Source: a virus. Taken from it: a stretch of DNA of 37,588 nt. The notes below the pieces were generated by a model. That model saw only the letters and a list, made by a program, of their open reading frames with translations, ran no database searches and had not been told where the DNA came from. The stretch is from positions 1 through 37,588 of the IMG/VR virus record IMGVR_UViG_3300006846_000040, one strand, 5' to 3'. Shown one piece after another: positions 2,570 through 30,067 of the stretch. Each line of letters starts with the position of its first letter. The stretch's first letter is position 1. Position numbers and translations under genes: made by a program.

Positions 2570-2571
2570 GG

Positions 2572-3018: not shown

Positions 3019-3031
3019 CGCAGCCTCCTAT

Positions 3032-3481: not shown

Positions 3482-3484
3482 GGT

Positions 3485-3778: not shown

Positions 3779-3779
3779 C

Positions 3780-3965: not shown

Positions 3966-4318
3966 CAGTAGAACTCCACCGGGACGCCCTTCACTGTCAC
4001 AGACGACCTGCGGCTCGAGGTGCCAGCGCAGGCTTGCTCCACGATGGCGCTGACCACCTGGGCAATCTGTACGCCGGTGAGAATTGCCGGATGGACGCCT
4101 GCAAACATGGCGCCGATCACGGAGAGAATGCTGTTGGCTGTGGGGATGACGACGCCCGCCGTGGCACAACCTGCCTTGACGCCCGTCTGGATCGCCGTGA
4201 TGACGGCAGCAACCTTAGCCGCGGTGTCGTCAATCTGCTGCTGCGTACAACTAGCGACGACTGCGGCGGCTCCGGCGCCGACCATTGCCATGCTCAGGTT
4301 TCGCCTTGTCGGTGACAT
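3965..4318 (-). CDS. Putative phage lipoprotein
   Basis: A 117-residue protein. The N-terminus has arginines (SPTRRN), a hydrophobic core (MAMVGAGAAAVV) and a lipobox-like VASC with the Cys at about residue 24. The mature part is Ala/Val-rich with two further hydrophobic stretches (GVVIPTANSILSVIGAMFAG). ATG 4318 follows CAGGAGAACATCAA. A lipoprotein next to holin and endolysin genes suggests an o-spanin-type or superinfection-exclusion role, but the mature region is too hydrophobic for a typical Rz1 and lacks the usual Pro richness, so the role stays open. Confidence 0.6.
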   Translation of the reverse strand: MSPTRRNLSMAMVGAGAAAVVASCTQQQIDDTAAKVAAVITAIQTGVKAGCATAGVVIPTANSILSVIGAMFAGVHPAILTGVQIAQVVSAIVEQACAGTSSRRSSVTVKGVPVEFY

Positions 4319-4490
4319 TTGATGTTCTCCTGTTTGCGTTTCGTAGGATGGCTTCAATCTCAGCAACAGCCTGTTGGATTTCTGGTATGGCAGGCTGCAC
4401 TTCCCCAAGCAGCCGATTGAACAGTTGGATTAGCTCTGGATGCTTCGCAGCAACCCCGAGCAGTGGGAGATATTTCAGGTATTCGAACAT
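4251..4490 (-). CDS. Small helical protein with basic tail
   Basis: A 79-residue frame starting MFEYLKYLPLLGVAAKHPEL, with a helical middle (IQQAVAEIEAILRNA) and an Arg/Lys-rich tail that lies entirely within the start region of the following lipoprotein gene (68-base overlap). The body up to about residue 50 looks like a real protein; the basic tail is probably tolerated read-through of the neighbour's signal-peptide region. Function unknown. Confidence 0.55.
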   Translation of the reverse strand: MFEYLKYLPLLGVAAKHPELIQLFNRLLGEVQPAIPEIQQAVAEIEAILRNANRRTSNVTDKAKPEHGNGRRRSRRSRR

Positions 4491-4493
4491 TGT

Positions 4494-4694
4494 TTAATCC
4501 ACATCATTGATGCCCAAGTCTCTCGCCAACTTACTTGCCGGGTCGTTAGTCACGGGCACGGTTTCTTTCGGCCCATTCCACCAGTCCATCAAGATGCGCC
4601 AGTACGTCCGCGGCTTGTCGCCGCGCCGATCTTCGATGTTCTCAGAAATGGCGAGGTCATCGGTACGTAACCATCTCCAGAACCGCCAGTTCAT
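4494..4694 (-). CDS. Small Trp-rich protein after the holin
   Basis: A 66-residue protein starting MNWRFWRWLRTDD, with a second Trp cluster (YWRILMDWWNGPKE). ATG 4694 overlaps the holin stop as ATGA, which decides the start against a longer upstream frame. No membrane segment; it could associate with membranes through the Trp-rich helices. Unknown function. Confidence 0.6.
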   Translation of the reverse strand: MNWRFWRWLRTDDLAISENIEDRRGDKPRTYWRILMDWWNGPKETVPVTNDPASKLARDLGINDVD

Positions 4695-4951
4695 GGTGCA
4701 TGAGAAGGCGGCGCCACCTTCGCACCGGTCGCACTGCTTACAGTCGGGAGATTCTGCCGGACAACTACCTTGTCCAACACCGGCTTGGTGTTCCATTTGA
4801 CATAGAAGCCCCATAGAGCCGGAAGAAGGATGGCGACAAAGCCAATCAGTGCCTCCCATTGGGTTTCATTGGCCCAACCCTTGCCGGTGATATAGCCGCC
4901 AACGGCGATCAACACGTAGCGGATAAGCTGGAAGATCGTGTCAGCATTCAT
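4691..4951 (-). CDS. Holin, Pam3-gp28-like
   Basis: An 86-residue protein with two membrane segments (about 6-24, LIRYVLIAVGGYITG, and 33-52, ALIGFVAILLPALWGFY) followed by a polar tail. The sequence strongly resembles the 'Pam3-gp28 family putative phage holin' group, which pairs 'GYITGKGW' with 'ALWGFYVKW'. Holins form inner-membrane lesions that release endolysin or collapse the membrane potential. ATG 4951 overlaps the endolysin stop as ATGA and follows GAGGAAACCGAA. Confidence 0.85.
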   Translation of the reverse strand: MNADTIFQLIRYVLIAVGGYITGKGWANETQWEALIGFVAILLPALWGFYVKWNTKPVLDKVVVRQNLPTVSSATGAKVAPPSHAP

Positions 4952-5772
4952 TTCGGTTTCCTCAATGTGACGCTGCAGCGGTCGTCGGTGTTAAGCCGAA
5001 GCGCGCGAGCTCCTCCGGGAGATAGGTCGGCCACGCGGCCCGTCCACAGTGCCGGCCCAAAATCAACCGCCCGAAATTCCATCTGCTGGCCCTTCGCCTC
5101 GACCACGACGGGCTGGTTGCGCAATGTCTCATAGAGTTCACGCGGCCAGCGGCAGGCGATGTATGGCTTTGCAGGGTTGAGCCGACGACCGAGGCCACCG
5201 GAGCCAGGCAGCAGATAGTCTCCCAGGCCGTACTTGCGCATTTGGGCTTCATTCGCGAACAGCGCGAGCCCTTCGTCCGCACTCATGCCTGTATCAAGCG
5301 GCCCGCCGAACGTAGACATTCGGCCATCGACCGAGAACAGGACGCCAGCCGGTGGGGGCGTCACTGGTACCGCGCCGATGTTCCACGGGGTCGAGTCGTC
5401 GTACAGTGACGGATCGCCCATCACCGAAACGTGGATGTGATGAGCGTGGGCGTTGGAGCCGGAATACCGCCGCGTCTCCCACGGAGACACCTTCGAACTG
5501 AAAATCCGGCCATTGCTGATTGCATATTTGATGCGGTGGTCGCGCCCGAGGCGGAGCCGTTCAAAGAACGCCCAACTATCAAAACCATTTGCCGGGTCGT
5601 GAGTGAAATCTCTCGCCGTAACAACGCCGTTTTCATTCGGATTGTGATCCGACGCAGTATGGGAATGCGCCTCATCCCCGATCGAGCCGTCACTGCTCTT
5701 GTCCCGGTTGGGGGCAACGGCGTTGATCTGCCCCAGCAGTACGTTGAGACTCTTAGCTACCCGCCACACCAT
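4948..5772 (-). CDS. Endolysin: M15-like peptidase with C-terminal double-psi beta-barrel
   Basis: A 274-residue protein. Residues 25-120 carry the zinc ligand pattern of M15/VanY-like peptidases: SDHN (His43), ARDFTH (Asp55, His58) and HAHHIHVSV (His111-His114). These cleave peptide bonds in peptidoglycan stems. After a Pro-rich linker (PVTPPPAG, about 136-143), residues about 195-262 look like an RlpA/expansin-type double-psi barrel, with the DFGP and GRVADLS signatures. It is coupled by TGATG to a mini-frame upstream and by ATGA to the holin downstream. No signal peptide is seen, which fits holin-dependent release. The barrel assignment is my inference from short motifs. Confidence 0.8.
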   Translation of the reverse strand: MVWRVAKSLNVLLGQINAVAPNRDKSSDGSIGDEAHSHTASDHNPNENGVVTARDFTHDPANGFDSWAFFERLRLGRDHRIKYAISNGRIFSSKVSPWETRRYSGSNAHAHHIHVSVMGDPSLYDDSTPWNIGAVPVTPPPAGVLFSVDGRMSTFGGPLDTGMSADEGLALFANEAQMRKYGLGDYLLPGSGGLGRRLNPAKPYIACRWPRELYETLRNQPVVVEAKGQQMEFRAVDFGPALWTGRVADLSPGGARALRLNTDDRCSVTLRKPK

Positions 5773-5837
5773 CAGGCTTTCTCCACGTCAGCGATTGCCT
5801 GCAACGTCATTTGGTGCAGCCGCTCATTGGCCTGCAT
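5772..5837 (-). CDS. 21-codon linker frame between fibre and endolysin
   Basis: A 21-residue frame, MQANERLHQMTLQAIADVEK plus Ala. Both ends are TGATG overlaps: its ATG overlaps the fibre gene stop, and its TGA overlaps the endolysin ATG. It may be a real micropeptide or simply a translational bridge that carries ribosomes from the fibre to the endolysin. Confidence 0.4.
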   Translation of the reverse strand: MQANERLHQMTLQAIADVEKA

Positions 5838-6349
5838 CACGAAGACCCCGCAATATATGAAAAGAACCCGCGCAGGCGCACGGACCCTCCGGTCGGCATG
5901 TCAGCGGCAGCAACATTGTCCGAACTTTGCGCTGAACCACTCATAACCAATTCGAGCGAGGAACCGCCTGCCGACGATGCCTGCAGAATTATGTCGGTAT
6001 AATTGGCCTTTGTGATCCCGCGCCATTCGGTATTGCCGCCGCGCTGCACTTCGCCGCTTACCCCCGCGATGGCAAACGGCAGGCCGGTTATAAGAAAATT
6101 GCCGGCGGCGGTAGTATGCGTGAAAACGCTCGTAGCGATAACAAATGCGGCGTGAACCCACGGCCCAACCTTGACATAAGTGCCATCCTGGGAATCGTAA
6201 CTTACGGACAAATCTCCCGGCGTTGCGAACGTTATCGCCGGTGTCCACAGCCCCTCAACCTGCAGGGCATCAAACTCAGCATTAAGTCGGGCGCCGATTA
6301 TCTTTTGCTGACGCTGCGGGTCGTTGAGCCAGTCAAATAGACGGGCCAT
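5837..6349 (-). CDS. Short tail-fibre or receptor-binding protein
   Basis: A 170-residue protein. The N-terminus MARLFDWLNDPQRQQKI... is a helical attachment segment. Residues 45-100 show a pattern common in phage fibre tips, with 'DGTYVKVGPWVHAAFVI', an alternating beta stretch and 'GLPFAI'. The rest is beta-rich. ATG 6349 is directly adjacent to or overlaps the upstream fibre stop at 6349. It is likely a trimeric beta-sandwich tip acting with the preceding fibre in host recognition. The exact receptor cannot be read from sequence. Confidence 0.7.
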   Translation of the reverse strand: MARLFDWLNDPQRQQKIIGARLNAEFDALQVEGLWTPAITFATPGDLSVSYDSQDGTYVKVGPWVHAAFVIATSVFTHTTAAGNFLITGLPFAIAGVSGEVQRGGNTEWRGITKANYTDIILQASSAGGSSLELVMSGSAQSSDNVAAADMPTGGSVRLRGFFSYIAGSS

Positions 6350-7467
6350 TAGAGGTCGCCGTAACAGGCAAAATAAATCGCATCAGGGTCGGCGTCAGGG
6401 AACCCACCAGCATCAAATTCAACGCATTTAATGGTGAACGTGCCTGCCGCCTGAGTTCTAACCTTGATGATGAATTCCGTATTAGCGTCACCGTCAATGA
6501 CCGACAGCAATACAACATAATCTGCACTGGAAAAGTCATTGGCGATCGTTACAGTCCAGTCGCCAACGCTGTCCTTCACAACTCCGGTGATGTTGTAGGA
6601 GGCGGCCACCGTCCCATCCGCCGCAAACTTCGCCCACGCCTTAGCGGCACCAGGATGGAAATGCTGCCTCCCCGACGTAACAAGCTTGTCGGTCGCGGTG
6701 CCGGTCTCCTGCTCGGCCTGAGTGGCAATCATCGTCCCGCCTGCGGTGGCACCAACAACCTGACCCGTGGTTGTCAACGCAGTGGTCGTGACGCTGGTAC
6801 GCAGCACCCCCGCTGTAGAAAAGCCAATTTGATCGTCGGCAATGAAGTACATACCGGCATCAGACGCGCCCGCAGTCTGACGGATGGCAGGCGAAGCCGC
6901 CGTCCCATCAGGAATAGTCAGCCTGCCAGCCATCACCGTATTGCCGGTCACGTCGAGCGTCCCAGCTACCAGCGTGTTGCCGCTCGCCGCGGCTACCGTG
7001 AATTTGTTGGTTGCAACCGCGAAGTTGCCGGACACATCGAGCGTGCCGGTCACAGTTGAGTTTCCGGTGATGACAAGGCCGCCAGAGGAAACCGTCAGTG
7101 CGCCGGACAACGTCAACGTAACGCCCGTCCCGCCCGTGATCGCCGTTGCCGTGCTGGTGAGCGTACCGACACCGCCCGCTGTGAGGCCCCACTGATCCGC
7201 CGCCGGGAAATACAGTCCGGTGTTGAGGTCGCTGACATGGGCGTAGGATGCCGACGACACCGAGCCGTCCATGGAGCTCGTGCCAAGCGCAAACGGGATG
7301 CGCGCTGTGGCGGTGGTCTGCCCATCCTTGGTGACACAGGTAGACAGGCCCGTGGCCATGCCGTCCATCTCGGCATCCATGCGCGTATCGGTGACGGGCA
7401 CGACGTTGGTGTGGTCGGTGACCCAATTGTGGACGCGAACGAACGTCCCCGAGCCGTTGTAGGCCAT
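6349..7467 (-). CDS. Tail fibre protein
   Basis: A 372-residue protein. A short N-terminal region (SGTFVRVHNWVTD...MDAEMDG, about 5-36) is typical of podophage fibres that attach to the tail. It is followed by a long Thr/Ser/Gly-rich beta-repeat shaft (about 90-230), then the widely found segment 'QAEQETGTATDKLVTSGRQH' followed by FHPGAAKAW, and a C-terminal beta domain. Family knowledge: this QAEQE...GRQHFHPGAAKAW block occurs in many phage tail fibres. ATG 7467 is preceded by AGGAC at 12 bases. It acts with the short fibre gene that follows. Confidence 0.85.
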   Translation of the reverse strand: MAYNGSGTFVRVHNWVTDHTNVVPVTDTRMDAEMDGMATGLSTCVTKDGQTTATARIPFALGTSSMDGSVSSASYAHVSDLNTGLYFPAADQWGLTAGGVGTLTSTATAITGGTGVTLTLSGALTVSSGGLVITGNSTVTGTLDVSGNFAVATNKFTVAAASGNTLVAGTLDVTGNTVMAGRLTIPDGTAASPAIRQTAGASDAGMYFIADDQIGFSTAGVLRTSVTTTALTTTGQVVGATAGGTMIATQAEQETGTATDKLVTSGRQHFHPGAAKAWAKFAADGTVAASYNITGVVKDSVGDWTVTIANDFSSADYVVLLSVIDGDANTEFIIKVRTQAAGTFTIKCVEFDAGGFPDADPDAIYFACYGDL

Positions 7468-7486
7468 GGCGGTTTAGTCCTATAAT
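7457..7486 (+). promoter_or_regulatory. Candidate sigma-70 promoter for a leaderless + strand gene
   Basis: A perfect TATAAT at 7481-7486 lies 18 bases after TTGTAG (7457-7462), which matches three of six bases of the -35 consensus. Transcription would begin about seven bases downstream, at or next to the ATG at 7493. That gene has no Shine-Dalgarno sequence, so the mRNA may be leaderless. The site lies within the start of the oppositely oriented tail-fibre gene. Confidence 0.5.
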
Positions 7487-7492
7487 GTTGGA

Positions 7493-7654
7493 ATGTGGTG
7501 GTTGCTGCAGGCAACTATTGTAGGCGTTGTTCTTTGTACCAATGCTTATTGGCAGTGGACGCCCAACCCGTACGTTGCACTTGGCTTAGGTCTAGCCTGC
7601 GCGTTCCTGCCCACAGCGATGATGTTCCGCATCCGTCATGGTCGCTGGCCCTGA
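7493..7654 (+). CDS. Small two-helix membrane protein, opposite to the late operon
   Basis: A 53-residue protein starting MWWLLQATIVGVVLC. It has two membrane segments (about 2-17 and 28-45) around an aromatic/Pro loop (YWQWTPNPY) and a basic tail (RIRHGRWP), which predicts a cytoplasmic C-terminus. It is the only convincing + strand gene in the late region. It overlaps the last 19 bases of the ejection-type gene convergently and fills a gap otherwise without late genes. The promoter just upstream would allow expression from a prophage, so superinfection exclusion or host-membrane modification is a fair guess. I recall similar short proteins in phages but cannot name the family. Confidence 0.65.
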   Translation: MWWLLQATIVGVVLCTNAYWQWTPNPYVALGLGLACAFLPTAMMFRIRHGRWP

Positions 7655-9150
7655 TGGCCAGACGTTTCCAGGGCAAGCAACCGAGCAAGCCTCGCGCGCG
7701 GGTCATAGTTGGCGATATTGGCCCGTGTTTGGGAAGCCGCAGAAGGCGCACGCTCAAGGATAGCTTGCACAAGCGCTTCAGCCTTGCGTCTGGCGAGCAC
7801 ATCGCCTGCCTTCTTGATGCCATAACCAAACGGAGCCGCAACTAATCCAGGCAAGCCAAACAACCCGTATGCACCGCCAGTGGTAAGCGCCGCCCCAAGC
7901 CCGCCGCCACCGCCTAAAAGCTTCCCCGTAGCTCGTAGGACGTTAGCCGGTAGCGAACCTTTCACGCCCTCCTCGACCTGAGCAAATTCCGCTTCGTTCA
8001 ACCCCCGCCGCCCCTTTTTGCTCAAGAGTGTTTTGGTTTGCTGTCTCAACGCATTCTGAATGTTGCCGCCGGAATGAGCCGATCCGGCCCCAAGTTCAGC
8101 ATTGTAAATCTTGTCCGCGACTCGCTCTGCGGTCTTGGCTGATGCATAATCCCCACGGGCAGCGGTAATTCTGGCACTTGCCTGTGCCGCATTGCCGGCT
8201 GCAAGGTCAGCCTGTGGGATATTGTCGATATATTTGGTTAGCTTTTCCAGAGCAACGCTAGCCGCGCGCTGCTCCTGCGGATTAGCAAAGTTACCGGCTT
8301 GCTTTTGCAACAGCTCGCGCGTGGTCTGTAAATCTTCATAAGTATGTGCCGCGCCACTTACTGGCACCCTCAGATCGTCAATGAGTGCGTTGGTTTGCGG
8401 TGCCAATCGCACATTAGCCTTAGCACGCCGCAAGTCAGCTTCAATTGAACTGGCTAAGGCGTCAACCGCCGAAGGTTTAAAAACGACCGCCGCCACCTCG
8501 GGCGATTGATAACCAGCCGTCGCACGAGCCTCAATCTGGGCTGGTTTCAGTGCGGCCGAAACCTGCTTAGGTGCCGTTGCAAGGCTGGCGCCAACTCCAC
8601 CGACAACACGGCCAACCGGCCCTAATGAGGGGTTAACCGCTTCCGCAGCCTGTCCGAGGCCCTCTGAGGCAACGCCTGGGACAGCTGCTCGTCCAACCAG
8701 CCGCCCCGCGAGCGCAGGCACTTCACGGGCAACGGTAGCCGCAGCGCGCCCAGGTATTGCGGCAGGCGCAAATTCGGCCGCCGTTTGCGTGTATTTCTCG
8801 CTGCCCACCGGCTCATAGAACTTGCCGGTAACACCCTCAACACCTTGCTTTAGCTTCTCCGATGTCGGCCCTCCCATCCAGGGAACATATTTAAGAACAG
8901 ACGAAACCTTCTCTTGTGGAATATCAAAGCCTGCCAGACCCGCCAACTTGCTGGCCGCTGCTGCATTCATCTCACGAATATCGCCGCTCATGCCACCAGC
9001 ATAGATGCCGGCATTTGCCAACCCAACACCGGCAGCTTTGACGTGGCCGATACGACTGGCCTCTCTTGGCTGCTCAAGTTCGAAGCCGGGCGGCGGCGGT
9101 GGTATTTCGTCAATCAATTCAAATCCGGGCGGTGGGGGCGGTCTTGTCAT
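7636..9150 (-). CDS. Ejection/internal virion-type protein
   Basis: A 504-residue protein. The N-terminus has a tandem motif, PPPPPGFELIDE and PPPPPGFELEQ. Next comes a long Ala/Gly-rich region with helices (about 30-180), a charged coiled-coil-like middle (about 200-360) and a Gly-rich hydrophobic segment (LLGGGGGLGAALTTGGAYGL, near 420-440). Large Ala-rich proteins with membrane-active segments after the nozzle gene are typical podophage ejection proteins that form a channel across the envelope. ATG 9150 overlaps the preceding stop as ATGA. The role is inferred from order and composition. Confidence 0.65.
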   Translation of the reverse strand: MTRPPPPPGFELIDEIPPPPPGFELEQPREASRIGHVKAAGVGLANAGIYAGGMSGDIREMNAAAASKLAGLAGFDIPQEKVSSVLKYVPWMGGPTSEKLKQGVEGVTGKFYEPVGSEKYTQTAAEFAPAAIPGRAAATVAREVPALAGRLVGRAAVPGVASEGLGQAAEAVNPSLGPVGRVVGGVGASLATAPKQVSAALKPAQIEARATAGYQSPEVAAVVFKPSAVDALASSIEADLRRAKANVRLAPQTNALIDDLRVPVSGAAHTYEDLQTTRELLQKQAGNFANPQEQRAASVALEKLTKYIDNIPQADLAAGNAAQASARITAARGDYASAKTAERVADKIYNAELGAGSAHSGGNIQNALRQQTKTLLSKKGRRGLNEAEFAQVEEGVKGSLPANVLRATGKLLGGGGGLGAALTTGGAYGLFGLPGLVAAPFGYGIKKAGDVLARRKAEALVQAILERAPSAASQTRANIANYDPRARLARLLALETSGHQGQRP

Positions 9151-14566: not shown

Positions 14567-15260
14567 TTTGCGCCTCCGCTACTTCCTTGGGCTTGTTCTT
14601 GCTACCCTTGGGCCGACCGCCCTTGTTCTTGGGAACATCACTCACCGCATGATATGAGGGCTCCTCAAACCCCGGCGGAAACGGTTGTTCCGCTGGTTTG
14701 CCCTGCACCAGTTTGGCCAGGTCGGCTATCTGCCGCCTCAGATCGGAAATTTCTGCTTCCTTGCGCGCAGCATCCGCCGCAATCGCCTGTGATGCTGCAG
14801 TATCCTTCGCCACCGCCAGAAATGCCTTGGCCTTGGCCCGAAGCTCACGCCCCTTATTGCCAATCTTGTTGATGTGCGTATCATTAACCTCCGCCAATTC
14901 TTCCACCGTATGAACATTGGCCGCCTTGAGGGTCATGGCCAACGACCGATCAACCTGGGGCCATTCCTCGATCGGCAGTCCATTAACAACCGGCTTGCTT
15001 TCCGAGGCTTGAAATGCCGCCCAAGCAACCGGCCATTTTCGTTTGTGTTCCTCAGTCGCAAAAACCTGATGACCTTTTGTCTGCGTGTCACCGGGTACTT
15101 CAGCCTTAAAAAACAATCTTGGCCCATAAACAGGATAGCCGGCCGCTGCGGACTTCCTCTTATCAGGCAGGGGCACTAGGCCAAACCCAACCCGCACCTT
15201 TGGATACATATCGGGGAGCCCATCCTCCCGCTCCATAACCATAACGAATTCGCCATTCAT
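14553..15260 (-). CDS. Capsid-proximal protein with helix-hairpin and AT-hook-like tail
   Basis: A 235-residue protein. The N-terminal half is beta-rich, with a VAWAAFQASESKPVVNGLPI motif. Residues about 120-165 hold a helical repeat (LKAANVHTVEELAEVNDTHI ... GRELRAKAKAFL), a helix-hairpin-like fold. Next come a coiled coil (EAEISDLRRQIADLAKLVQ) and a basic tail KNKGGRPKGSKNKPKE that resembles an AT hook. Proteins of this design are common next to podophage capsid genes; the exact role is unknown. ATG 15260 follows CAGGAGGCGGCGTG and overlaps the upstream stop. Confidence 0.65.
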   Translation of the reverse strand: MNGEFVMVMEREDGLPDMYPKVRVGFGLVPLPDKRKSAAAGYPVYGPRLFFKAEVPGDTQTKGHQVFATEEHKRKWPVAWAAFQASESKPVVNGLPIEEWPQVDRSLAMTLKAANVHTVEELAEVNDTHINKIGNKGRELRAKAKAFLAVAKDTAASQAIAADAARKEAEISDLRRQIADLAKLVQGKPAEQPFPPGFEEPSYHAVSDVPKNKGGRPKGSKNKPKEVAEAQNVPS

Positions 15261-16441
15261 CACGCCGCCTCCTGATTTGCGTTGTACATTCTGCCCATGG
15301 TCTGCAGCAGCCCCTCGCCGTAAAGCCTAAATTTGGCGTCCGGCTGCTTTTCGACTGTCTTCCAGAAGTCGCTTGCATACTGCATCAGGACGACCGTTGT
15401 ATCGAAGATCTCACCAGCACAACGCGCCTGCACAATCTGATGCTCTTTCGGATTGGCTTTGCTGGCGTGCGGTCCTGCCCATTGCTGCGCCCATGTCGCC
15501 GGCTTGTCCGAGTCGTACTTGCCTATGGAGCAGTCCATTCCATACATCGAAAAATTACGATAACCCATTTCATAGAACAGACCGATCGACCTCAGCCCGA
15601 CATTGCTCCCACCGGGGGCGAGCCAGCGATCAGGCTCAAGCTTCCTGAGTTGAATGTTCAGCGGGCTAGAACAATGAAATAACGAAACGTCATAGCCCTG
15701 CAACTTCTCGATCAGGACGGGATGCACCATCGAGCCCAGCAGATATTCTACCTCATGGGACGGTCGATTGATGTTGTCGGCCTTGTGCGGACGGGGGTCG
15801 CATTCGACGTGATAGTGTGGCGTGATGCCGTGGTCGATCAGGAAGTCATGCGCCCCTGACACCGATATGATGTTGCTCGGTCCCTCTAGAGCTTCCTCCA
15901 CAAGCCGCGGCAGGTTGTCAGTCAATGACGGCCCGTAACAAGCGATAATCGCCCGTACATCATGTGCCGGCGCCTGTGCTACCCGCTTCTTGATGGTTGC
16001 CGAATTTTTGACGATGCTGTCCCACCAGCCTTCGGCCGTGCCGGCGGCAACAATCTTGGCACCTGGAACAGCCTTCATGATCGGCGAACCTATTATCGAG
16101 GCAATAGACCCCTCCTGCTTGGAATCCATTATGGTAAAATGCTTCCCGATGATCCGGGTCCACGTCTCAAAATTCCTCATTGCGTCCAGTTGGATCCCAA
16201 ACATCACCGCAACGCGGGCGAGAGACTTGATTGCCGTCAAGGCATCATCGACATTGCGCTGGTGCTCCAAAATGCCGAAGGCCATGATGATATCGGCCGG
16301 CTTGTGATCCGGGCGTCCCTCCCAGATTTCATAGGTTCTGATGCGACCCCAGCTATCATCATATTTTTCAGAGAAGCGCCGCACCTCCTCAAACTTCGCT
16401 TCTATATCTTTCATAAATCGTCGGCGCCGATTTCTGTTCAT
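15260..16441 (-). CDS. DUF115/MptE-Maf-like protein with N-terminal methyltransferase remnant
   Basis: A 393-residue protein. Residues about 45-115 read 'ADIIMAFGILEHQRNVDDAL' and then LARVAVMFGIQLD, the motif IV side of a class I methyltransferase, but no motif I (ExGxGxG) is present. From about 165 the DUF115 features follow: CYGPSL, 'VSGAHDFLIDHGITPHYHVE' with CDPRPHK, GGSNVGLRS and GYRNFSMYGMDCS. Family knowledge: PF01973 includes MptE-like enzymes and the Maf flagellin glycosyltransferases. A paralogue lies at 29231-30067. ATG 16441 overlaps the preceding methyltransferase stop as ATGA. Transfer of sugar to virion protein is a hypothesis. Confidence 0.7.
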   Translation of the reverse strand: MNRNRRRRFMKDIEAKFEEVRRFSEKYDDSWGRIRTYEIWEGRPDHKPADIIMAFGILEHQRNVDDALTAIKSLARVAVMFGIQLDAMRNFETWTRIIGKHFTIMDSKQEGSIASIIGSPIMKAVPGAKIVAAGTAEGWWDSIVKNSATIKKRVAQAPAHDVRAIIACYGPSLTDNLPRLVEEALEGPSNIISVSGAHDFLIDHGITPHYHVECDPRPHKADNINRPSHEVEYLLGSMVHPVLIEKLQGYDVSLFHCSSPLNIQLRKLEPDRWLAPGGSNVGLRSIGLFYEMGYRNFSMYGMDCSIGKYDSDKPATWAQQWAGPHASKANPKEHQIVQARCAGEIFDTTVVLMQYASDFWKTVEKQPDAKFRLYGEGLLQTMGRMYNANQEAA

Positions 16442-16986
16442 GTCCGCATCGCCATTCTGATCCGGGTGTCCCCGAATGTATCCTCAACCGGCAGCACCTG
16501 ATGCGGCACATCGGCCAACACTGCATTACAGCCGAATTTCGAGGTATCCACGCCCCCCATGTAATAGTCGTCAAAGACGATGTAGCGCGAATGTTTCAAG
16601 GCCTCGTAGTCGCCGCGGATTGTTTCGATGGAATGCCCACCGTCGATGAAAACAAAATCGGCCATGATATTCTTGCCGTGCAATGTGTCGCGGGTGTTGC
16701 CTTGGATGAGCTCGAATGTAAAACCAGGGTTGTTGTCCTTGAGGATCTGTAACTTCTGCGCAGCGGTTTGCCGTTCAGCGGAGCCCTTGCCATTCATCTC
16801 GGCGGCATTGGTTTGCGGCGTTGCGCTCTCAAACAGATCGAAGCCGAGGTAACGGACATCATTACGGTGGGCGAGTGCGACCTGGCACATGACCATGGCA
16901 CGGGTCCCCCGGTGTGTCCCGACCTCAACGATGAATTGCGGCCGGGCCATGCCGATCAGGTCAACGAGTTGGTCGTATCGGTTCAT
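16438..16986 (-). CDS. Class I SAM-dependent methyltransferase
   Basis: A 182-residue protein. FIVEVGTHRGTRA (about 18-30) is motif I for SAM binding; RYLGFDLFE supplies the acidic residue of strand 2; 'DFVFIDGGHSIETIRGDYEA' and SRYIVFDDYY are the later motifs, as in Methyltransf_24/TylF-like sugar or small-molecule methylases. ATG 16986 has CAGAGGG six bases ahead and overlaps the end of the dehydratase gene by 26 bases, which decides the start. Next to GDP-mannose dehydratase and glycosyltransferases it may methylate a deoxysugar, though the acceptor is unknown. Confidence 0.75.
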   Translation of the reverse strand: MNRYDQLVDLIGMARPQFIVEVGTHRGTRAMVMCQVALAHRNDVRYLGFDLFESATPQTNAAEMNGKGSAERQTAAQKLQILKDNNPGFTFELIQGNTRDTLHGKNIMADFVFIDGGHSIETIRGDYEALKHSRYIVFDDYYMGGVDTSKFGCNAVLADVPHQVLPVEDTFGDTRIRMAMRT

Positions 16987-17956
16987 GCCAACCCTCTGAT
17001 ATGTCGGTGATGACCATTTCTTGCACCAAGTCGCGGAACGAGGTTTTGGGTTCCCATCCAATCGAGCGGGCCTTGCCTGCGTCCCCACAGAGAACGTCAA
17101 CCTCGGTCGGGCGGTAGAATTGCGGGTCTATCGTCACAACCACGCGGTTGTTATTGTCTATCCCATATTCCTGCTCGCCCTTGCCTACCCATGCGATGGT
17201 GCGGCCTATGCATTCAAAGGCCGCTTCCACAAACTCACGTACAGTTCTGGTTTCTCCCGTAGCGAGCACATAGTCGGCGGGTTCAGGCTGCTGCATAATC
17301 TTCCACATACCAAGCACGTAGTCGCGGGCATGGCCCCAATCGCGCTTAGCGTCAAGATTGCCCAACCGCAAAGGCTCCGTTCGTCCATTGGTAAACCCGG
17401 CGACCGCCTTGGTGATCTTTCGGGTGACAAATTGTTCGCCACGTCTTGGGCTTTCATGGTTGAACAGGATGCCGTTGCAGGCATACATGCCATGCGCTTC
17501 GCGGTAGTTCACCGTCATCCAGTAGGCCGCCAGTTTGGACACCCCGTAGGGTGAGCGGGGCCAGAAATCGGTCGCTTCACTCTGCGGTGGCGGGAACGAG
17601 CCGAACATCTCGGATGTGGACGCCTGGTAGAACTTGCCGCCATTCCAGCGGACGGCCTCAAGTAGATCGGTCACCGCAAGGGCATTAACCTGCATGGTCA
17701 GGCTGGGCTGCTCGAACGACACCCCAACATGACTTTGCGCAGCAAGGTTATAGATTTCATCCGGTTTGATGCGGGCAACAAGATGGCCAAGCCCGTCCGT
17801 CATGTCCCCGTCATGCCAGATAATGTCGTTCAACGGTGGAGATGGACGAGTGGTAGAAGTCCGCCGCAGCGCGTGAACGTCATAGTCCTTCTCACACAGC
17901 AGCTCACACAAATATTGCCCATCCTGCCCTGTCGCGCCGGTGACCAGGGCTCTCAT
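16961..17956 (-). CDS. gmd: GDP-mannose 4,6-dehydratase
   Basis: A 331-residue short-chain dehydrogenase. GATGQDG (7-13) binds NADP; 'FYQASTSEMFG' with Thr114 and Glu116, and Tyr137/Lys141 in 'SPYGVSKLAAYW', form the catalytic set; 'NHESPRRGEQFVTRKI' and KRDWGHARDYV are diagnostic of Gmd. It converts GDP-D-mannose to GDP-4-keto-6-deoxymannose, the precursor of L-fucose, D-rhamnose, colitose and perosamine. No reductase or aminotransferase for the next step is seen in the window, so the product must be finished by host enzymes. ATG 17956 overlaps the previous glycosyltransferase stop as ATGA. Confidence 0.93.
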   Translation of the reverse strand: MRALVTGATGQDGQYLCELLCEKDYDVHALRRTSTTRPSPPLNDIIWHDGDMTDGLGHLVARIKPDEIYNLAAQSHVGVSFEQPSLTMQVNALAVTDLLEAVRWNGGKFYQASTSEMFGSFPPPQSEATDFWPRSPYGVSKLAAYWMTVNYREAHGMYACNGILFNHESPRRGEQFVTRKITKAVAGFTNGRTEPLRLGNLDAKRDWGHARDYVLGMWKIMQQPEPADYVLATGETRTVREFVEAAFECIGRTIAWVGKGEQEYGIDNNNRVVVTIDPQFYRPTEVDVLCGDAGKARSIGWEPKTSFRDLVQEMVITDISEGWHEPIRPTR

Positions 17957-18678
17957 GCAACGGCCCCGTAGGCTTCGCGCTTCTGCTTGTTGCCCTTGTT
18001 GTGCTTCATGACTGTTCCCAAGGGCGTATGCGGCATGACCGCAAGACCTTCGCCGCGATAATCCTTCCCCAGGTCGTTGAACTTGTGTCCCCGTTGCTCG
18101 TAAATTTTCCGCAGGCCATCGAACACCATGCAGTCGTGCTGCTGCGGCAGGTCGATAACTGCGTCGTGCGTGTACCACAAGCGCATGTCGTCCAAGAACT
18201 CTCTGCCTGACTTGGTGGCACAGTTATAAGCAACAAACCCGGATTCGGTGTGTTGCCACCACTCACGCCCCATGTAGGTTGCCACGCAATCGTCAGGCAA
18301 AACGCTATCGAGGAACGCATGCGTCACGGGAGCCTTCGTCTCGATGTCGCCGTCCAGCCAGATCAGAAAATCCGTTTCACGCGGCGCCGCGGTGACGGCA
18401 AAAACCTTGTGGCAGAACTTTATTGGCTGTCTGCGGTAGTCTACCGGGTGATCGGTATGCCGCGCCATGAACGCCGCGCGGTCTTCATCATCATCAAGCG
18501 GCGTCCAGTACCATTTCAGCAATTCTTCTTCATCGTCTGTATATTCCTCATCGCCCTCATAATAGACGTATAACGGGATATCCTTCGGCCAGAACTTGTT
18601 AAACGAATCCAGCATCCGCTGCCCATAGACCTCATAGCCCTTGCGGGAAAACGTCGTAACAACCGTTATACTGCCCAT
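17953..18678 (-). CDS. GT-A-type glycosyltransferase
   Basis: A 241-residue protein. ITVVTTFSRKGYEVYGQRML is the usual first strand and helix. LIWLDGDIET (about 124-133) holds the DxD metal and nucleotide-sugar site, and 'ESGFVAYNC' follows like the acceptor side of GT-A enzymes. I start at ATG 18678, with GAGGAA 12 bases upstream, rather than at a longer frame inside the neighbour. It ends in a basic, Lys-rich tail (KHNKGNKQKREAYG). Donor and acceptor are unknown. It sits between another glycosyltransferase and gmd, overlapping both. Confidence 0.7.
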   Translation of the reverse strand: MGSITVVTTFSRKGYEVYGQRMLDSFNKFWPKDIPLYVYYEGDEEYTDDEEELLKWYWTPLDDDEDRAAFMARHTDHPVDYRRQPIKFCHKVFAVTAAPRETDFLIWLDGDIETKAPVTHAFLDSVLPDDCVATYMGREWWQHTESGFVAYNCATKSGREFLDDMRLWYTHDAVIDLPQQHDCMVFDGLRKIYEQRGHKFNDLGKDYRGEGLAVMPHTPLGTVMKHNKGNKQKREAYGAVA

Positions 18679-19548: not shown

Positions 19549-20082
19549 TTACGCGATGCTCTGACGGCTCATCACGGGATAGTTCAACCACGCAGCGGTG
19601 GCTGTGTCCTGCAACCCGCTGGTAGCCGTCAGCCAAGCACCATCAATCACCGTTGACAGCGAGGTGATGCCGTCATCGACGGTGCCGGTGCCGGTGATGC
19701 TGGGACGCAACTGCACATAGGGCAGCGACGACAGAGAGGCGATCAGGGAGCAGGCACCATAGATTTGCACCCAGATCAGCATCGAGGCCGAAGCCGTCAC
19801 CGAGACGATGGCAGCACCCACCGCCCCGTGTTTGGTGACGACTTCATCACCCGCCGTGAACATGGAGAACCTGAACGGCGAGACCCCCGCCGCAGGCGCC
19901 AGGGTACCGATGCGGCCGATCGAGCCGCTGACGGTGACCTGCGTACCCGAGACCTCACAAAGGATGTACTCCTTGCCGTCGTGGGTTCGGGCACGGGTTC
20001 CCCTTGCGGGGCAGACGCCCTTGACAAGTTCGTCCGGTGTGTAGACCCGACCCGGACTGCAGCCAACGATTGAGTAAGACAT
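19549..20082 (-). CDS. Probable head decoration or minor head protein
   Basis: A 177-residue, mostly beta protein with few charged residues. It opens MSYSIVGCSPGRVYTPDELV and is Ser/Thr/Gly-rich, with strand-like stretches (EYILCEVSGTQVTVSGSIG). It sits directly after the major capsid gene, 12 bases away, with a strong GGAGG six bases before its ATG, so high expression is expected. This position often holds capsid decoration proteins. No motif confirms the assignment. Confidence 0.55.
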   Translation of the reverse strand: MSYSIVGCSPGRVYTPDELVKGVCPARGTRARTHDGKEYILCEVSGTQVTVSGSIGRIGTLAPAAGVSPFRFSMFTAGDEVVTKHGAVGAAIVSVTASASMLIWVQIYGACSLIASLSSLPYVQLRPSITGTGTVDDGITSLSTVIDGAWLTATSGLQDTATAAWLNYPVMSRQSIA

Positions 20083-20094: not shown

Positions 20095-21090
20095 TTAGAT
20101 CGGGCTGAACACGATGCCCTGCAGCGACATATTGGAAACGCAGAGATTGCCTGCGAAGCCAAGGAAGCGGACAGTGGCATCCTGGTTGACGGGGATCCGA
20201 TCGCCGCCGAAGGGGACGAAGTTACGATCGGGGTGTGGTCTCAAGTAAATGTAGTCGGTGTTCAGCGCGTACACCGTCTTGGCCGGGCAGTACCCGTTGT
20301 CCAGGACAAAATCCGCGTTTGAACCGACTCCGAAATACTTGAGGTTGGTGAAGCCATAACCGCCCAACGTCTCGTCCGTGATGCGTTGGATCGGCTGCAG
20401 GCTCTCCAGATAGAACCTGTAACCGATGCCATCCGCCACGTAGAGGTCGGGACGGTCAGAGCCGCGCGTGCAGGCAATTGCCAAGGTGTTCAGCCCGCGC
20501 ATGAACTCGGACGGGTTGAACGTGGCAATATTGACGCTCGTGGCCGACATCGTCACGGTTGCAACTTGGTTGCGCCAGAACGTGTTGTCCACGCGCGAGA
20601 TACCGCCCACGGTGCCGGTGGTCGGAGCCGAGATGATAAGCAGCTGCAAACCGTGCATCTGCTTGCCACCCGAGCCGGTGCCGTCCGAATAGCTCGCTTG
20701 GGCAACCAAGTCGTTGAGTGACTTTTCGCCGTTGCGAACCCTGGACGCCACCAAGTCGATGACCTCGAATTCGCCCATGTTCTTGAGCTTTTCGAGGCCC
20801 GACCAGACAACCGGGACGTAGGCTTGCTTCCAATCATACTCTGCGGCGGAGAACGGCTCGAACGGTGTCGTGCTCAGAGGGTCATAGCCGGCATACCATC
20901 CACCATTAGTGTTCAGCGCCTGCTCGATTTCCTGCACGATAGTTCGGCCGCCCGCGGCCGGTTTGACCTTGCCGCGTCGGCGAAGCCGATCGAGCAAGAC
21001 CGTAGACCTCGTGGCATTGTCGGCGAGCTTACCGCTGCGGTTCCGCAGGGTCGTCGTGACAATGTCATCGAAGTTGGGATTGGCCGGAAT
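20095..21090 (-). CDS. Major capsid protein, apparent ATT start
   Basis: 331 residues if translation begins at ATT 21090-21088. The family features are 'NPNFDDIVTTTLRNRSGKLA', then LLDRLRRRGKVK, GGRTIVQEIEQA, FSAAEYDWKQAYVPVVWSGL and YSDGTGSGGKQMHGLQLL, all typical of a common tailed-phage capsid family. The first canonical start in frame (TTG 20997) would drop 31 conserved residues of the N-terminal arm. Upstream of the ATT lies GGGAG (21103-21099) with an eight-base spacer, and an in-frame TAA at 21108-21106 that ends the HNH gene. Homologues as I remember them begin M-P-A-N-P-N-F, exactly where ATT-CCG-GCC-AAT stands, so ATT replaces ATG. Read-through or a shorter TTG start are the alternatives. 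Confidence 0.85.
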   Translation of the reverse strand: MPANPNFDDIVTTTLRNRSGKLADNATRSTVLLDRLRRRGKVKPAAGGRTIVQEIEQALNTNGGWYAGYDPLSTTPFEPFSAAEYDWKQAYVPVVWSGLEKLKNMGEFEVIDLVASRVRNGEKSLNDLVAQASYSDGTGSGGKQMHGLQLLIISAPTTGTVGGISRVDNTFWRNQVATVTMSATSVNIATFNPSEFMRGLNTLAIACTRGSDRPDLYVADGIGYRFYLESLQPIQRITDETLGGYGFTNLKYFGVGSNADFVLDNGYCPAKTVYALNTDYIYLRPHPDRNFVPFGGDRIPVNQDATVRFLGFAGNLCVSNMSLQGIVFSPI

Positions 21091-21105
21091 AGCACGTACT
21101 CCCTT

Positions 21106-21582
21106 TTAAGGAATACGCGAGAATGCTCCGAAATATTTATCGGCTGCTTTCGCATAGGCAGCCATGGCGTCATCGGAGTTTGAAAAGCAACCCAGATGAA
21201 TACCTTGCCGACTGACTGTGATTCGTGCGCGCCATTTCCCGTTAGCCATCAACTGAATTCCCTTAACTCCATTTTTGGGAGTCCGGTTACGATGGTTTTC
21301 TTGCCGAGTTGCTTCGCGTAGGTTGGCCCATGCATTGTTGGCGCGGTTGCCATCCACATGATCGATGTCATGTTTCGGAAACCTTCCAACCATGTAGAGG
21401 AATGCCAACCGGTGCGCCAGGTACAACGTCCCGTCGATTCTGGCGATTGGGTAGCCGTGAGTATCACGACACTTAACTACCGAACCAACCTTCACTCGAT
21501 TAGACGTTGGCTTCTTCCAGGTTAGCAGCCCGGCGAGCGGGTCATAGTGCAACACTTCACGCAGTCTTTCGGTCGTCAGCAT
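21106..21582 (-). CDS. HNH homing endonuclease with AP2 DNA-binding domain
   Basis: A 158-residue protein. It contains AHRLAFLYMVG, then DIDHVDGNRANNAWANLRE and TRQENHRN (residues about 57-100), the HNH_3 core with its His, Asp-His and Asn residues. GVKGIQLMANGKWRARITVS...LGCFSNSDDAMAAYAKAADKYFG (about 105-152) is an AP2-type DNA-binding domain. This pairing is typical of free-standing phage homing endonucleases. ATG 21582 follows AAGGAAATTCAAGTG; a TTG at 21600 would overlap the scaffold stop. It sits alone between scaffold and capsid genes, which otherwise adjoin, and shares the capsid reading frame. Confidence 0.9.
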   Translation of the reverse strand: MLTTERLREVLHYDPLAGLLTWKKPTSNRVKVGSVVKCRDTHGYPIARIDGTLYLAHRLAFLYMVGRFPKHDIDHVDGNRANNAWANLREATRQENHRNRTPKNGVKGIQLMANGKWRARITVSRQGIHLGCFSNSDDAMAAYAKAADKYFGAFSRIP

Positions 21583-21596
21583 CACTTGAATTTCCT

Positions 21597-22805
21597 TCAA
21601 ACTCGGGATGAAGACATAACTGACCGATATGCGTCTCGCGCATCATCCTCGATTGAATCGCCTGAGCGGTTGCGGCCTTCGGTGACCGTGCTCGACGGCG
21701 ATCCGGTGATGGACTTGGACGCTTGACGCGCCTGGTCCGCTGCATCCTTATCTTTCTGCTTGCGGTCGGCTTCCCATTTGGCGCTCTTCTCTTGATCGAG
21801 GACCGCCTTGATTTCTGGGGTTCGCTCGCAGGCAAGCTCGTAGGCCTCTTTAAGATCGGCCATGTCGTCGCCAGTAGTTTCGACTGCGCCCGTCTTGATG
21901 TAATGAGCCATCTTGAGACGGACGTTTTCGAAATAGCGGTGAGCAGGATCAGACTGGAAGCGAGCCATAGCGCCGTTGAGAGCCGCTTGCTGCTGTGCTT
22001 CCTTATCCTGCACGAGCCTTTCGATAAGTTGCCGTTGTTCTGCTTGTGCCTGCTGCAGTGGGGTGAGGTACTGCTGCAGGACTTCGGGGGGAAGGCCGGT
22101 TGATTGGCCCTCTGGCACTTGGGCATGGCCGTTTGATTGGCCGACGCCCAGGTGAAGCGACAAACCCGTCACCAACTGTTGCGGCGGAATGCCGATGTTG
22201 TTGGCAATCTGGGTAATGGCTCGGAACGGGTCTTGCCGTAGCAGACGCTCGATCCCGACGTAGTTATCCAGTGCAGCCTTCAGCGTGGTGCCGCCTTGGC
22301 GGGCCATCTCGACATAGGGCTGCAGTTCCTTCATGCCCGAGTATTGAGCAAAGCCCTGGCTGACTTCCGTTTCGCGTTTAACGACATCGGCACGGATGTG
22401 TTCGGGCAACTTGTCCCATTCGGACTTTGACTTGACCGACCATCCAGGCGGTGGGCCACCAACAGGTGGCGCCGCAGATGCCTCTACCTTGGCCGCCACA
22501 GGAGGAGGAGCTTGCGGGGCCTTGGGTTGCTCCTGCGGCGCCGCCTTTTGGGGCTTCGCCTCTGCAGGTTTTTCCTCGGTCTTTTCCGTGAACCGGCCGA
22601 GTTCGTCACGCGGGCGGTCGTCGGTCTTAGAATCTTCGGGCTTCGCCTCGGTCTTTGTTTCCTCGGTCTTGGGTTCCTTGGGTTCCGACAACGGCAGTTC
22701 GGGTTCTGTCGCCGGCCCCTGCGTGACTTCATCGAATGCCGACTTGGCGTCGTCCCAAGTGGTATCGACATCGGGCTGGCTGTTGCCAGCTTGCTCTACA
22801 GGCAT
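21597..22805 (-). CDS. Capsid scaffolding protein
   Basis: A 402-residue protein. The N-terminal third is acidic, Pro/Lys/Glu-rich and disordered (repeats such as EPKEPKTEETKTEAKPED). A helical core follows (SEWDKLPEHIRADVVKRETE, about 125-290) and a highly charged coiled-coil tail (SAKWEADRKQKDKDAADQ) ends in Ser-rich sequence. Scaffolds of podophages have this composition and lie just upstream of the capsid gene, as here. They direct procapsid assembly and leave before packaging. AAGGAAAAGTC precedes the ATG. Confidence 0.75.
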   Translation of the reverse strand: MPVEQAGNSQPDVDTTWDDAKSAFDEVTQGPATEPELPLSEPKEPKTEETKTEAKPEDSKTDDRPRDELGRFTEKTEEKPAEAKPQKAAPQEQPKAPQAPPPVAAKVEASAAPPVGGPPPGWSVKSKSEWDKLPEHIRADVVKRETEVSQGFAQYSGMKELQPYVEMARQGGTTLKAALDNYVGIERLLRQDPFRAITQIANNIGIPPQQLVTGLSLHLGVGQSNGHAQVPEGQSTGLPPEVLQQYLTPLQQAQAEQRQLIERLVQDKEAQQQAALNGAMARFQSDPAHRYFENVRLKMAHYIKTGAVETTGDDMADLKEAYELACERTPEIKAVLDQEKSAKWEADRKQKDKDAADQARQASKSITGSPSSTVTEGRNRSGDSIEDDARDAYRSVMSSSRV

Positions 22806-26559: not shown

Positions 26560-27453
26560 TCACCAGCTCGTTATCAGGACAAAGCCGTGGCCGCCGGCCC
26601 CGCCGGTACCAGTCGTATTCGTCGTGGTTGAGCCGCCTCCACCACCTCCGCCGGAACCCAACGCACCATTGCCACCAGTGCCGCCGTTAGCGACACCCGA
26701 CGCTGCACCACCACCGCCGGCACCTCCGGTAAACATCAGCTTGTTGATGTTTGAATAACCGTGACCGCCGGCAACTCCGGTAGCCGCCCCGCCTGAGATC
26801 GTCGGGACCATCGCAAACGTAGCATCGCCCGTAACATTTCCGCCGACGCCGGTCTCACCACCACCACCGCCGCCACCTGAAACGAAAATCCCAGTTGCAC
26901 CCCAGACAACAGCAGCCCCGGCACCATTGTTGCCGCCTGCGCCACCGGCTTGGCCTGCTATATTCGTAAAAATTCCAGCACCCAAAAACACGGCAGTAGT
27001 TGCTCCGGAAGCAGCGCCAGCGGCCCCGGCGGTTCCGCCGCCAACTGCGGCTTGACCACCACCGCCCCCAGCAGCAGTGAGAATAAGCGCACCAGCAGCA
27101 GTATCGGTCGCAATCATTGACACCCGGCTGGGCTGGGCATTACCCGCTGCACCACCAATGGCACCCCCAGCAGTGCCGTTCCCAACTAGAATAAAGACGA
27201 CCTCGGGTAAAAGAATACGCGGGACTGTGAATATTGTAATGGCACCAGATCCGCCACCACCGCCACCATCGCGGCTTGCCGCAGTGTTGCTCGATTGGCC
27301 ACCCCCGCCGCCGCCACCACCGCCGACCGCAATAAAACGGACTACGGAGTGCCCGCGCGGGATGATGTAGGGCTGCCAGACAGAACTCGTAGAGCCCATG
27401 AAGAGCTTGCTGATGCCAAGATTGCCTTCCGGCGTGTGCCACATGTCGAGCAT
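26560..27453 (-). CDS. Glycine-rich surface protein 3
   Basis: A 297-residue protein, third in transcription order of three tandem relatives. Layout: MLDMWHTPEGN head, a strand pair (YIIPRGHSVVRFIAVGGGGG), a polyglycine run near residue 50-70, a middle sandwich with GAITIFTVPRILLPEVVFIL, repeated GGAGG/GGGG segments and a terminal GGHGFVLITSW. Such patterns fold as polyglycine-II helices or glycine-rich adhesins ('Gly_rich_2'-like domains), as in some phage tail-tip adhesins. TAATG overlap joins it to its neighbour. Confidence 0.7.
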   Translation of the reverse strand: MLDMWHTPEGNLGISKLFMGSTSSVWQPYIIPRGHSVVRFIAVGGGGGGGGGQSSNTAASRDGGGGGGSGAITIFTVPRILLPEVVFILVGNGTAGGAIGGAAGNAQPSRVSMIATDTAAGALILTAAGGGGGQAAVGGGTAGAAGAASGATTAVFLGAGIFTNIAGQAGGAGGNNGAGAAVVWGATGIFVSGGGGGGGETGVGGNVTGDATFAMVPTISGGAATGVAGGHGYSNINKLMFTGGAGGGGAASGVANGGTGGNGALGSGGGGGGGSTTTNTTGTGGAGGHGFVLITSW

Positions 27454-28337
27454 TAGAAGCACACGACCATGAGAAGCCCGTTGCCACCCCGGCCACCAAC
27501 GCCGCCGGTCGTTCCACCGCCGCCAGCACCCCCACCACTGCCATATGCTCCATTGCCGCCCGCAGTGCCGACCCCATTAGTGGTTGTCCCCCCACCGGAG
27601 CCGCCAGAGAACAGCCACGGCATAAACCTGGAATACCCATCACCCGCCGCGCCGCCGCCGGCCGTTCCGCCCGCTATGGTCGGGACCAATCCCGCGCCGG
27701 TAACAGCGCCGCCCGCAGCTTGACCGCCCGTTGTCGAAGCGCCGCCGCCACCCCCACTACAGATGATACCAGCGCCGCCCCAAGTGACTGCCGTACCGGC
27801 GTTGTTGCCGGTACCGTTACCGCCTGCACCGCCGTCCTGACCGGCTACACCCGTCCAATTTGCTGCCGAAATGAGCTGGCACGCTGCAGCGGTGACAATC
27901 GCACCTCCAGTGCCACCGGCCGCCGTTGTTGCGGTGCCCGCCGCCCCAAGACCGCCACCGTTGGCGAGCAGGTAGAGATAGAGCGCCGTCGTGGACGGAA
28001 ACGCCGCCACGTAGGTTGGGCCTCCGGCGGTCCCTGCACCACTAGCGGCGCCGCCAGCGCCACCGGCACCGACTTGAACATAAATCGTGTCAGGCAAGGC
28101 ATTACGCGGGAACAGTGTCCGCGTCATTGCGCCAGAGGCACCCCCACCACCGCCGCCATGATCGTTGGCCCCAACAGCATCGGTGAACCCGCCGCCGGCA
28201 CCACCGCCGGCACCCATGCCGATCATCAGGACTTGCGAGCAGCCGCGCGGCAAAACGTAGGGCTCGAATGTGCCCTGTGAAAAAAATGTCCTGACGTTTG
28301 CGGTAGCACCTTCCGGCACATTGAACATATCGAGCAT
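27453..28337 (-). CDS. Glycine-rich surface protein 2
   Basis: A 294-residue paralogue of the flanking genes: MLDMFNVPEGATANVRTFFS head, EPYVLPRGCSQVLMIGMGAG, then a Gly-rich core and the ending GRGGNGLLMVVCF. The three share the PEG head, the P-R-G/N turn and the position of the hydrophobic strand (here LFPRNALPDTIYVQVGAGGA), but have diverged in the loops. They lie just after a DUF115 gene and before the heptad-repeat fibre, so they are probably virion surface components. Confidence 0.7.
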   Translation of the reverse strand: MLDMFNVPEGATANVRTFFSQGTFEPYVLPRGCSQVLMIGMGAGGGAGGGFTDAVGANDHGGGGGGASGAMTRTLFPRNALPDTIYVQVGAGGAGGAASGAGTAGGPTYVAAFPSTTALYLYLLANGGGLGAAGTATTAAGGTGGAIVTAAACQLISAANWTGVAGQDGGAGGNGTGNNAGTAVTWGGAGIICSGGGGGASTTGGQAAGGAVTGAGLVPTIAGGTAGGGAAGDGYSRFMPWLFSGGSGGGTTTNGVGTAGGNGAYGSGGGAGGGGTTGGVGGRGGNGLLMVVCF

Positions 28338-28340
28338 GTG

Positions 28341-29234
28341 TCACCAGCTCGCTATGATGACGAGGCCGTTACCGCCGCGCCCGCCTGCTCCCCCGGTCGC
28401 ACCAGCTCCTCCACCCCCTCCACCGCTCCCAATCCCACCATTACCGCCCGCCCCAGCTACGCCGCCATCGTTGGTGTTGCCGCCTGCTCCTCCGGTATGA
28501 AAGAACGGCTTGAACACCGAGTAACCATCACCACCGGGATTGGTCGCCGCAGCCAGGGCTCCACCTGAAATCGTCGGGACAAGACCGGCCCCTGTGATGT
28601 TGCCGCCAGCGAAGTTGACGCCGGTTGAGCCTCCACCACCAGCGCCGCCGGAAAGAGGAATGCCGGCGCCGCCAAAGGTAACAGCCGTGCCGGTTGCACC
28701 AGTCACCGCACCGCCTGCGCCACCGCTTTGACCGGCAACATTGACAAAAACACCAGAGCCCAAATACGCGGCAGTCGTCGCGCCCGAGGCGCTTCCCCCC
28801 GATCCAGCCGCCCCAACAGCAGCAGCAGCACCATTGCCGCCCTGCCCGCCAAGCTGCGCACTCATAATCAGCGACCCGGCAGCAGTTGCCGAGCTAACAG
28901 TGGACACGCGGGACAGATTGGCAGCAGTACCAGCAGCCCCAGAAGCGCCGCCGCTTCCGACCAGCACGAAAACAACGTCAGGGATTAGCAAGCGCGGAAC
29001 AAGCAAGCGCGAAATGGCCCCAGATCCGCCACCTCCACCACCACCGCCATCGTTGCCGGCAGTCCTGGTGAAACCATTGCCACCCCCGCCGCCGCCACCA
29101 ATCAGGAGAAAGTAAACCAGGCTATGGTTGCGCGGGATTTCATACGCCTCCCAGCCTTGCGCCGCCGTGGCTTCTCCATACTGAAAGATTCGGACAACCG
29201 CTTTCCCTTCGGGAATGTGCCAAACGTCGCTCAT
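28341..29234 (-). CDS. Glycine-rich surface protein 1
   Basis: A 297-residue protein, first of the three in transcription order. MSDVWHIPEGKAVVRIFQYG, YEIPRNHSLVYFLLIGGGGG, ISRLLVPRLLIPDVVFVLVG and the end GRGGNGLVIIASW correspond segment by segment to the other two. ATG 29234 overlaps the DUF115 stop as ATGA. High glycine content raises local G+C and gives strong codon bias to GGN, but all three keep full-length frames, so they are under selection. Confidence 0.7.
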   Translation of the reverse strand: MSDVWHIPEGKAVVRIFQYGEATAAQGWEAYEIPRNHSLVYFLLIGGGGGGGNGFTRTAGNDGGGGGGGGSGAISRLLVPRLLIPDVVFVLVGSGGASGAAGTAANLSRVSTVSSATAAGSLIMSAQLGGQGGNGAAAAVGAAGSGGSASGATTAAYLGSGVFVNVAGQSGGAGGAVTGATGTAVTFGGAGIPLSGGAGGGGSTGVNFAGGNITGAGLVPTISGGALAAATNPGGDGYSVFKPFFHTGGAGGNTNDGGVAGAGGNGGIGSGGGGGGAGATGGAGGRGGNGLVIIASW

Positions 29235-30067
29235 AGCCCGACCCAGTGTTTGAGCAGGCCATCGCCGCGCAACTCGATCTGAATCTTGGCCGGACTATCG
29301 CCGATGTGCGGCTGCACATACTTCTGGAAACAGTCCATGTAGCGCATCAGCGGCAGCGAGGTCTTGAACAGCCTCCCTTTGCACTCAACCTCGATGACCT
29401 GGATCGGCACATCGCCGGTATGTTTGCCGGCATGAAACTCCCCGTCACGAAATGACAAGTCCATGCCATGAACGACAAACTTGCGATAGCCCAAGCAGTA
29501 GAGCAGTGGAATCGCGCGCAGGCCGACCGAGCCGCCGCCTGGCACATCAGCAATATTCCAGAGGATTGGATTGCCGACCTTGCGGATGACATCCGGATGC
29601 ACGCACGAGGCCATCAGGTATTTCGTCTCGTCATTCGGGGTGAGCATCATCCCCTTATGACGGCGTGGGTCGCATTCGATGTGATACTCGGGGACGATCC
29701 CCCGCTCTACCAGGAAATCATGCGCGCCGGATACCGTAACAACGTCGCCAAACCTTACTTCGCCTGGTCCGTGGATGTCACTCACGGTATCCTTGAGCGA
29801 TGGCCCGTAACAGTACAGTGAGGCCGTTCGCTCGTGCGGCGCAGGGATGCCCCAGACCACGTAATGCCCGACCATGGTGCGAACCTTGCCGATCATCGGC
29901 TTTTCGCGGAATGGCGCGATGTGCTCGACCGTCCGGTAAGTCAGCCGCCTATGGTTGGTCGCAAGATTAGCCTCAATCTGCGCAAGCCGCTCCTCGTCGG
30001 GTATGCACGGCTTGCCCTCGATCTTGGAGAAATCGAACTCCTCACGGTATGAGGTTTTTGAAAGCAC
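29231..30067 (-). CDS. DUF115/MptE-Maf-like protein
   Basis: A 278-residue protein with an N-terminal helical part (about 1-60) and the DUF115 core: SLYCYGPSLKDTVSD, 'VTVSGAHDFLVERGIVPEYH' with IECDPRRHK, SCVHPDVIRKVG, PGGGSVGLRAIPLLYCLGYR and FVVHGMDLSF. The same landmarks occur in the gene at 15260-16441, so the two are paralogues. PF01973 includes Maf glycosyltransferases that add nonulosonic acids to flagellin Ser/Thr. It starts at GTG 30067 within the end of the preceding gene. Position just upstream of the Gly-rich proteins suggests it acts on virion surface proteins (inference). Confidence 0.7.
   Translation of the reverse strand: MLSKTSYREEFDFSKIEGKPCIPDEERLAQIEANLATNHRRLTYRTVEHIAPFREKPMIGKVRTMVGHYVVWGIPAPHERTASLYCYGPSLKDTVSDIHGPGEVRFGDVVTVSGAHDFLVERGIVPEYHIECDPRRHKGMMLTPNDETKYLMASCVHPDVIRKVGNPILWNIADVPGGGSVGLRAIPLLYCLGYRKFVVHGMDLSFRDGEFHAGKHTGDVPIQVIEVECKGRLFKTSLPLMRYMDCFQKYVQPHIGDSPAKIQIELRGDGLLKHWVGL

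Follow-up and report, generated by a model that had tools for sequence, protein, structure and literature searches.

In the window analysed here, a 37,588-base IMG/VR virus record from an uncultured bacterial virus, the major capsid protein (MCP) gene most likely starts at an AUU codon, a reading to which sequence comparison gives a probability of about two in three. Counted from that codon, the gene lies on the minus strand at 20095-21090, with 331 codons and a stop. Residues 8-332 of its open frame, which has no internal stop, match positions 5-326 of the 329 in the profile of PHROG 9953, "major head protein" (E = 5.4e-91). No second MCP gene was found, and a search by sequence for a solved structure of a relative gave none. 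The named relatives, 42-50% identical, belong to Bradyrhizobium phage ppBjS10J-1, Stenotrophomonas phage BUCT555 and Myxococcus phages Mx8 and Mx9, where they are annotated as capsid or major virion proteins; a nearer copy (71%) is found in a prophage of Rhodomicrobium, so the host of the virus is likely an alphaproteobacterium.

Immediately upstream on the same strand, at 21106-21582 and sharing the frame of MCP, lies a free-standing HNH endonuclease gene of 158 codons, running from ATG to TAA (PHROG 99, E = 5.4e-58; Pfam HNH_3, E = 8.5e-17). It is preceded in turn by the gene for a virion structural protein of PHROG 25516 (21597-22805, minus strand), by position a scaffold-like partner of MCP. 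The MCP frame opens directly 3' of the HNH stop codon and reads TAA (21108-21106) AAG GGA GTA CGT GCT ATT (21090-21088), followed by CCG GCC AAT CCC AAC TTC GAT GAC, which puts 15 nt between the stop and the ATT, a distance short enough that translational coupling may be possible. The coordinates given for this region in the original prediction are all right, and so is its placing of ATT 21090 behind GGGAG with an eight-base spacer; in-frame reading also bears out its claim that no canonical start occurs between the TAA and TTG 20997, the first in-frame ATG, GTG or TTG and codon 32 if the ATT is codon 1. The full Shine-Dalgarno sequence, AAGGGAG at 21099-21105 (minus strand), has a computed pairing with CCUCCUUUC of -8.5 kcal/mol; values across the family run from -1.1 to -10.0, and this is one of the stronger. 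The ATT is predicted to be unpaired (0.96) and the Shine-Dalgarno sequence itself to be partly paired (0.25 unpaired). The gene downstream of MCP, at 19549-20082 on the same strand, was taken as a control and has an ordinary ATG and Shine-Dalgarno sequence.

The relatives give good support for the ATT standing where the family has its start codon. In the closest distinct ones (L003-L017, 68-85% identical), an ATG is aligned with the ATT and is followed by the same conserved N-terminal arm, except that L014 has TTG at that codon (L014:850-855) and L013 has its ATG one codon earlier; L004 also shows the spacing of GGAG and 8 nt seen in the window. Of the 81 distinct rows in the wider set, the window is one and another (L135) is truncated at its 5' end; comparison with relatives that lack the HNH gene, which had been proposed as a check, finds that each of the remaining 79 has a canonical start no more than three codons from the aligned position (73 ATG, 5 GTG and 1 TTG, as counted from the table), leaving the window as the sole exception among the distinct relatives compared. 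The five relatives with GTG are more distant than L014. Readable copies in prophages of the same order likewise have canonical MCP starts (8/8, one of them being the L012/L019 prophage again). A search of all IMG/VR contigs for the arm motif found 13; the window's twin, 3300050500_000083, is alone in having ATT, and all the others have canonical starts and were already in the compared sets. The exact HNH-MCP junction was also found in that one contig only. These aligned starts mark the ATT as lying at the family's start site, where GTG and TTG are tolerated and ATT is unique to the virus of the window. Elsewhere in the window, conserved genes start in the ordinary way and close to where their relatives do, so start codon use in this genome has not shifted in general.

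The first 31 codons (20998-21090, minus strand) encode the N-terminal arm, which has 16 invariant positions among the relatives. Codons 2-31 differ from those of L003, L004 and L010 by 14-17 synonymous and 3-7.5 non-synonymous changes, with dN/dS of 0.08, 0.01 and 0.09, respectively, about equal to or below the values for codons 32-150; as judged from these comparisons, purifying selection acts on the arm as it does on the remainder of the gene, though the dN/dS values cover the whole branch to L003/L004 and need not mean that the gene was still working after the start-codon change, which counts against the AUU reading. As had been pointed out in the original prediction, a start at TTG 20997 (20995-20997, minus strand) would remove these 31 conserved residues, and with so many invariant positions and such selection on the arm it is not credible. 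The reading of ATT as the start thus stands as far as the relatives, the strength and spacing of the Shine-Dalgarno sequence and selection on the arm bear on it, with the actual use of AUU being argued from comparison: an AUU lies at the homologous start position, with a normally spaced Shine-Dalgarno sequence and without any canonical start nearby in frame.

Since the ATT is one base from ATG and every relative has a canonical start, the true base might be ATG, with ATT arising from an error of consensus or assembly, or from a minor clonal variant that the assembler chose. This is improbable. The second contig, IMGVR_UViG_3300050500_000083 (43,041 bases; L002, genome G001), carries the identical ATT and HNH gene, and aligns to the window over 34,855 bases in four pieces, with 0 mismatches, though the ends of the two differ, 128-2860 of the window being absent from G001 and 128-8313 of G001 being absent from the window. 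Agreement on ATT between two such contigs makes a random base error unlikely, including the sequencing error, ATG to ATT, that the original prediction had named as an alternative. Both contigs do share a 127-bp end piece (window 1-127, L054:1-127), which by our own reading resembles the k-mer overlap of one assembler, so that they are likely to come from linked samples; with evidence that is all comparative, a clonal variant that the two may share through such samples weakens the case for AUU to that extent. The common end with differing flanks looks as if both contigs were pieces of one circular genome.

It is also unlikely that the MCP gene is crippled, whether in a defective phage or prophage or by a recent harmful mutation where the HNH gene joins it, so that little or no capsid protein is made. 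A canonical start has been lost here beside a mobile-gene insertion, and AUU is usually a weak start, a poor fit with a protein of which a capsid takes hundreds of copies, which also counts against the use of AUU itself; in addition, a regulator-like HTH frame seen by eye in the rest of G001 suggests a temperate phage, which could persist as a prophage. Against this, the same sequence is found in two virus contigs, the MCP frame is free of internal stops, and the other conserved structural genes that were compared are open with canonical starts. Very unlikely is some other way of starting MCP, at TTG 20997 with its loss of the invariant positions of the arm, by read-through of the single TAA separating HNH and MCP in one frame to give an HNH-capsid fusion, for which there is no counterpart in any relative, or by splicing of the upstream HNH ATG to CCG GCC, which would yield M-PANPNF though Rfam shows no group I or II intron up to E = 5 and the sequence outside the HNH frame amounts to just 14-15 nt on either side.

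The HNH gene may have a part in the story. It has the HNH domain and small size of a free-standing homing endonuclease gene, and the site that it occupies is empty in the relatives: only the virus of the window has an HNH gene directly upstream of MCP, and this sole member with such a gene is also the sole member without a canonical start. The Mx8/ppBjS10J-1 family of MCP genes (PHROG 9953) is homologous and has a neighbouring gene order similar to that of the window, but with canonical starts and no HNH gene upstream. A link between the ATT and the insertion, as had been suggested originally, is plausible on the strength of this coincidence, which is a single case. HNH genes are seen shortly downstream of MCP in some distant relatives (L104:2861-3382, L133:1426-1965, L135:1255-1848 and, weakly, L089:1484-1978), which suggests that such genes settle beside the capsid gene repeatedly. 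The IMG/VR data contain no close relative of this HNH protein, the best being 44-47% identical.

The upstream structural gene ends (in RV, followed by TGA AG) much as in L004, so the left insertion point was probably just after that gene; the right one would lie inside the 15 nt before the ATT or be the ATT itself. The leaders before the HNH ATG and before the ATT are about equally like those of the relatives, hardly above shuffles, and with neither identifiable as ancestral the change from ATG to ATT may be either a scar of the junction or a point mutation that came later. No downstream sequence that might mark a common 3' end of the element is shared among other HNH genes of the same kind, several of which, by eye, overlap the ordinary ATGA or GTGA start of the next gene. 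No intron or other structured RNA was matched in Rfam, whether across the window or, with E allowed up to 5, within 20900-21900.

The most likely course of events would be that a free-standing HNH gene moved between the structural gene at 21597-22805 and the MCP gene of a tailed phage, the lineage then carrying ATT in place of ATG at the MCP start, a change that the insertion may have caused or allowed. Ribosomes would most likely initiate MCP at the AUU guided by the Shine-Dalgarno sequence upstream, possibly helped by those that have just terminated at the HNH stop, and MCP output would presumably be lowered. Neither the window nor G001 was found to encode any tRNA, such as might read AUU. 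It is a tentative idea that the most abundant protein of this phage is made from an AUU fixed after arrival of a homing endonuclease, be it as a tolerated scar, as self-protection of the element from its own cutting, or as a device tying capsid output to the level of IF3 or to translation of the endonuclease.

Some other features of the window may be mentioned. On the minus strand between 15260 and 18738, three separate genes, among which methyltransferase-like and MptE-like parts are recognised, correspond to one protein of 815 aa in relative G003; a GDP-mannose 4,6-dehydratase gene (frame 16961-18178) lies between the first two parts, and these appear to be phage-borne glycan genes occurring as fused or split cistrons. 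There are two MptE-like genes (PF01973), at 29231-30067 and 15260-16441, both similar to the same proteins of the relatives, and the three consecutive genes with Gly_rich_2 domains (PF21722) at 26560-29234 are likely a tandem family.

The AUU starts of infC and pcnB in E. coli are established, and both genes resemble MCP in having AUU at the start position behind a Shine-Dalgarno sequence with no canonical start instead; those are low-output cellular genes with weak, limited initiation and experimental proof, whereas MCP is a phage capsid gene with comparative evidence. The pcnB start is given by way of a reference in PMC13009471, where the AUU start of S. aureus cvfC1 was mapped by ribosome profiling and non-canonical starts in reporters reached about 10% of the output from AUG. 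The cvfC1 gene also combines AUU with a strong Shine-Dalgarno sequence, though its AUU is conserved among the staphylococci while the relatives of MCP all have ATG, GTG or TTG. Homing endonuclease genes lying beside or inside essential genes of T4-like phages and altering their expression are well described (PMC2988022), and the free-standing ones, such as the T4 mob and seg genes and mobE of Aeh1 (PMC2988022), are like that of the window in being inserted beside an essential phage gene; the GIY-YIG gene segD, placed between T4 head genes 23 and 24, offers a likeness to an HNH gene beside MCP. A search of the open-access literature turned up no capsid gene of a phage that starts with AUU, and no described case was found of a homing endonuclease insertion that left the downstream gene with an AUU start.

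For annotation, the consequence is that gene finders accepting only ATG, GTG and TTG would begin MCP at TTG 20997 and cut off the N-terminal arm. AUU starts as such, though rare, are already known, and MCP would add an unusual new example. If the AUU is used, a start codon familiar chiefly from regulated genes of low output can also serve to make a virion protein at high output, and the virus would provide a natural case of the effect of a mobile endonuclease gene on the start site of its neighbour.
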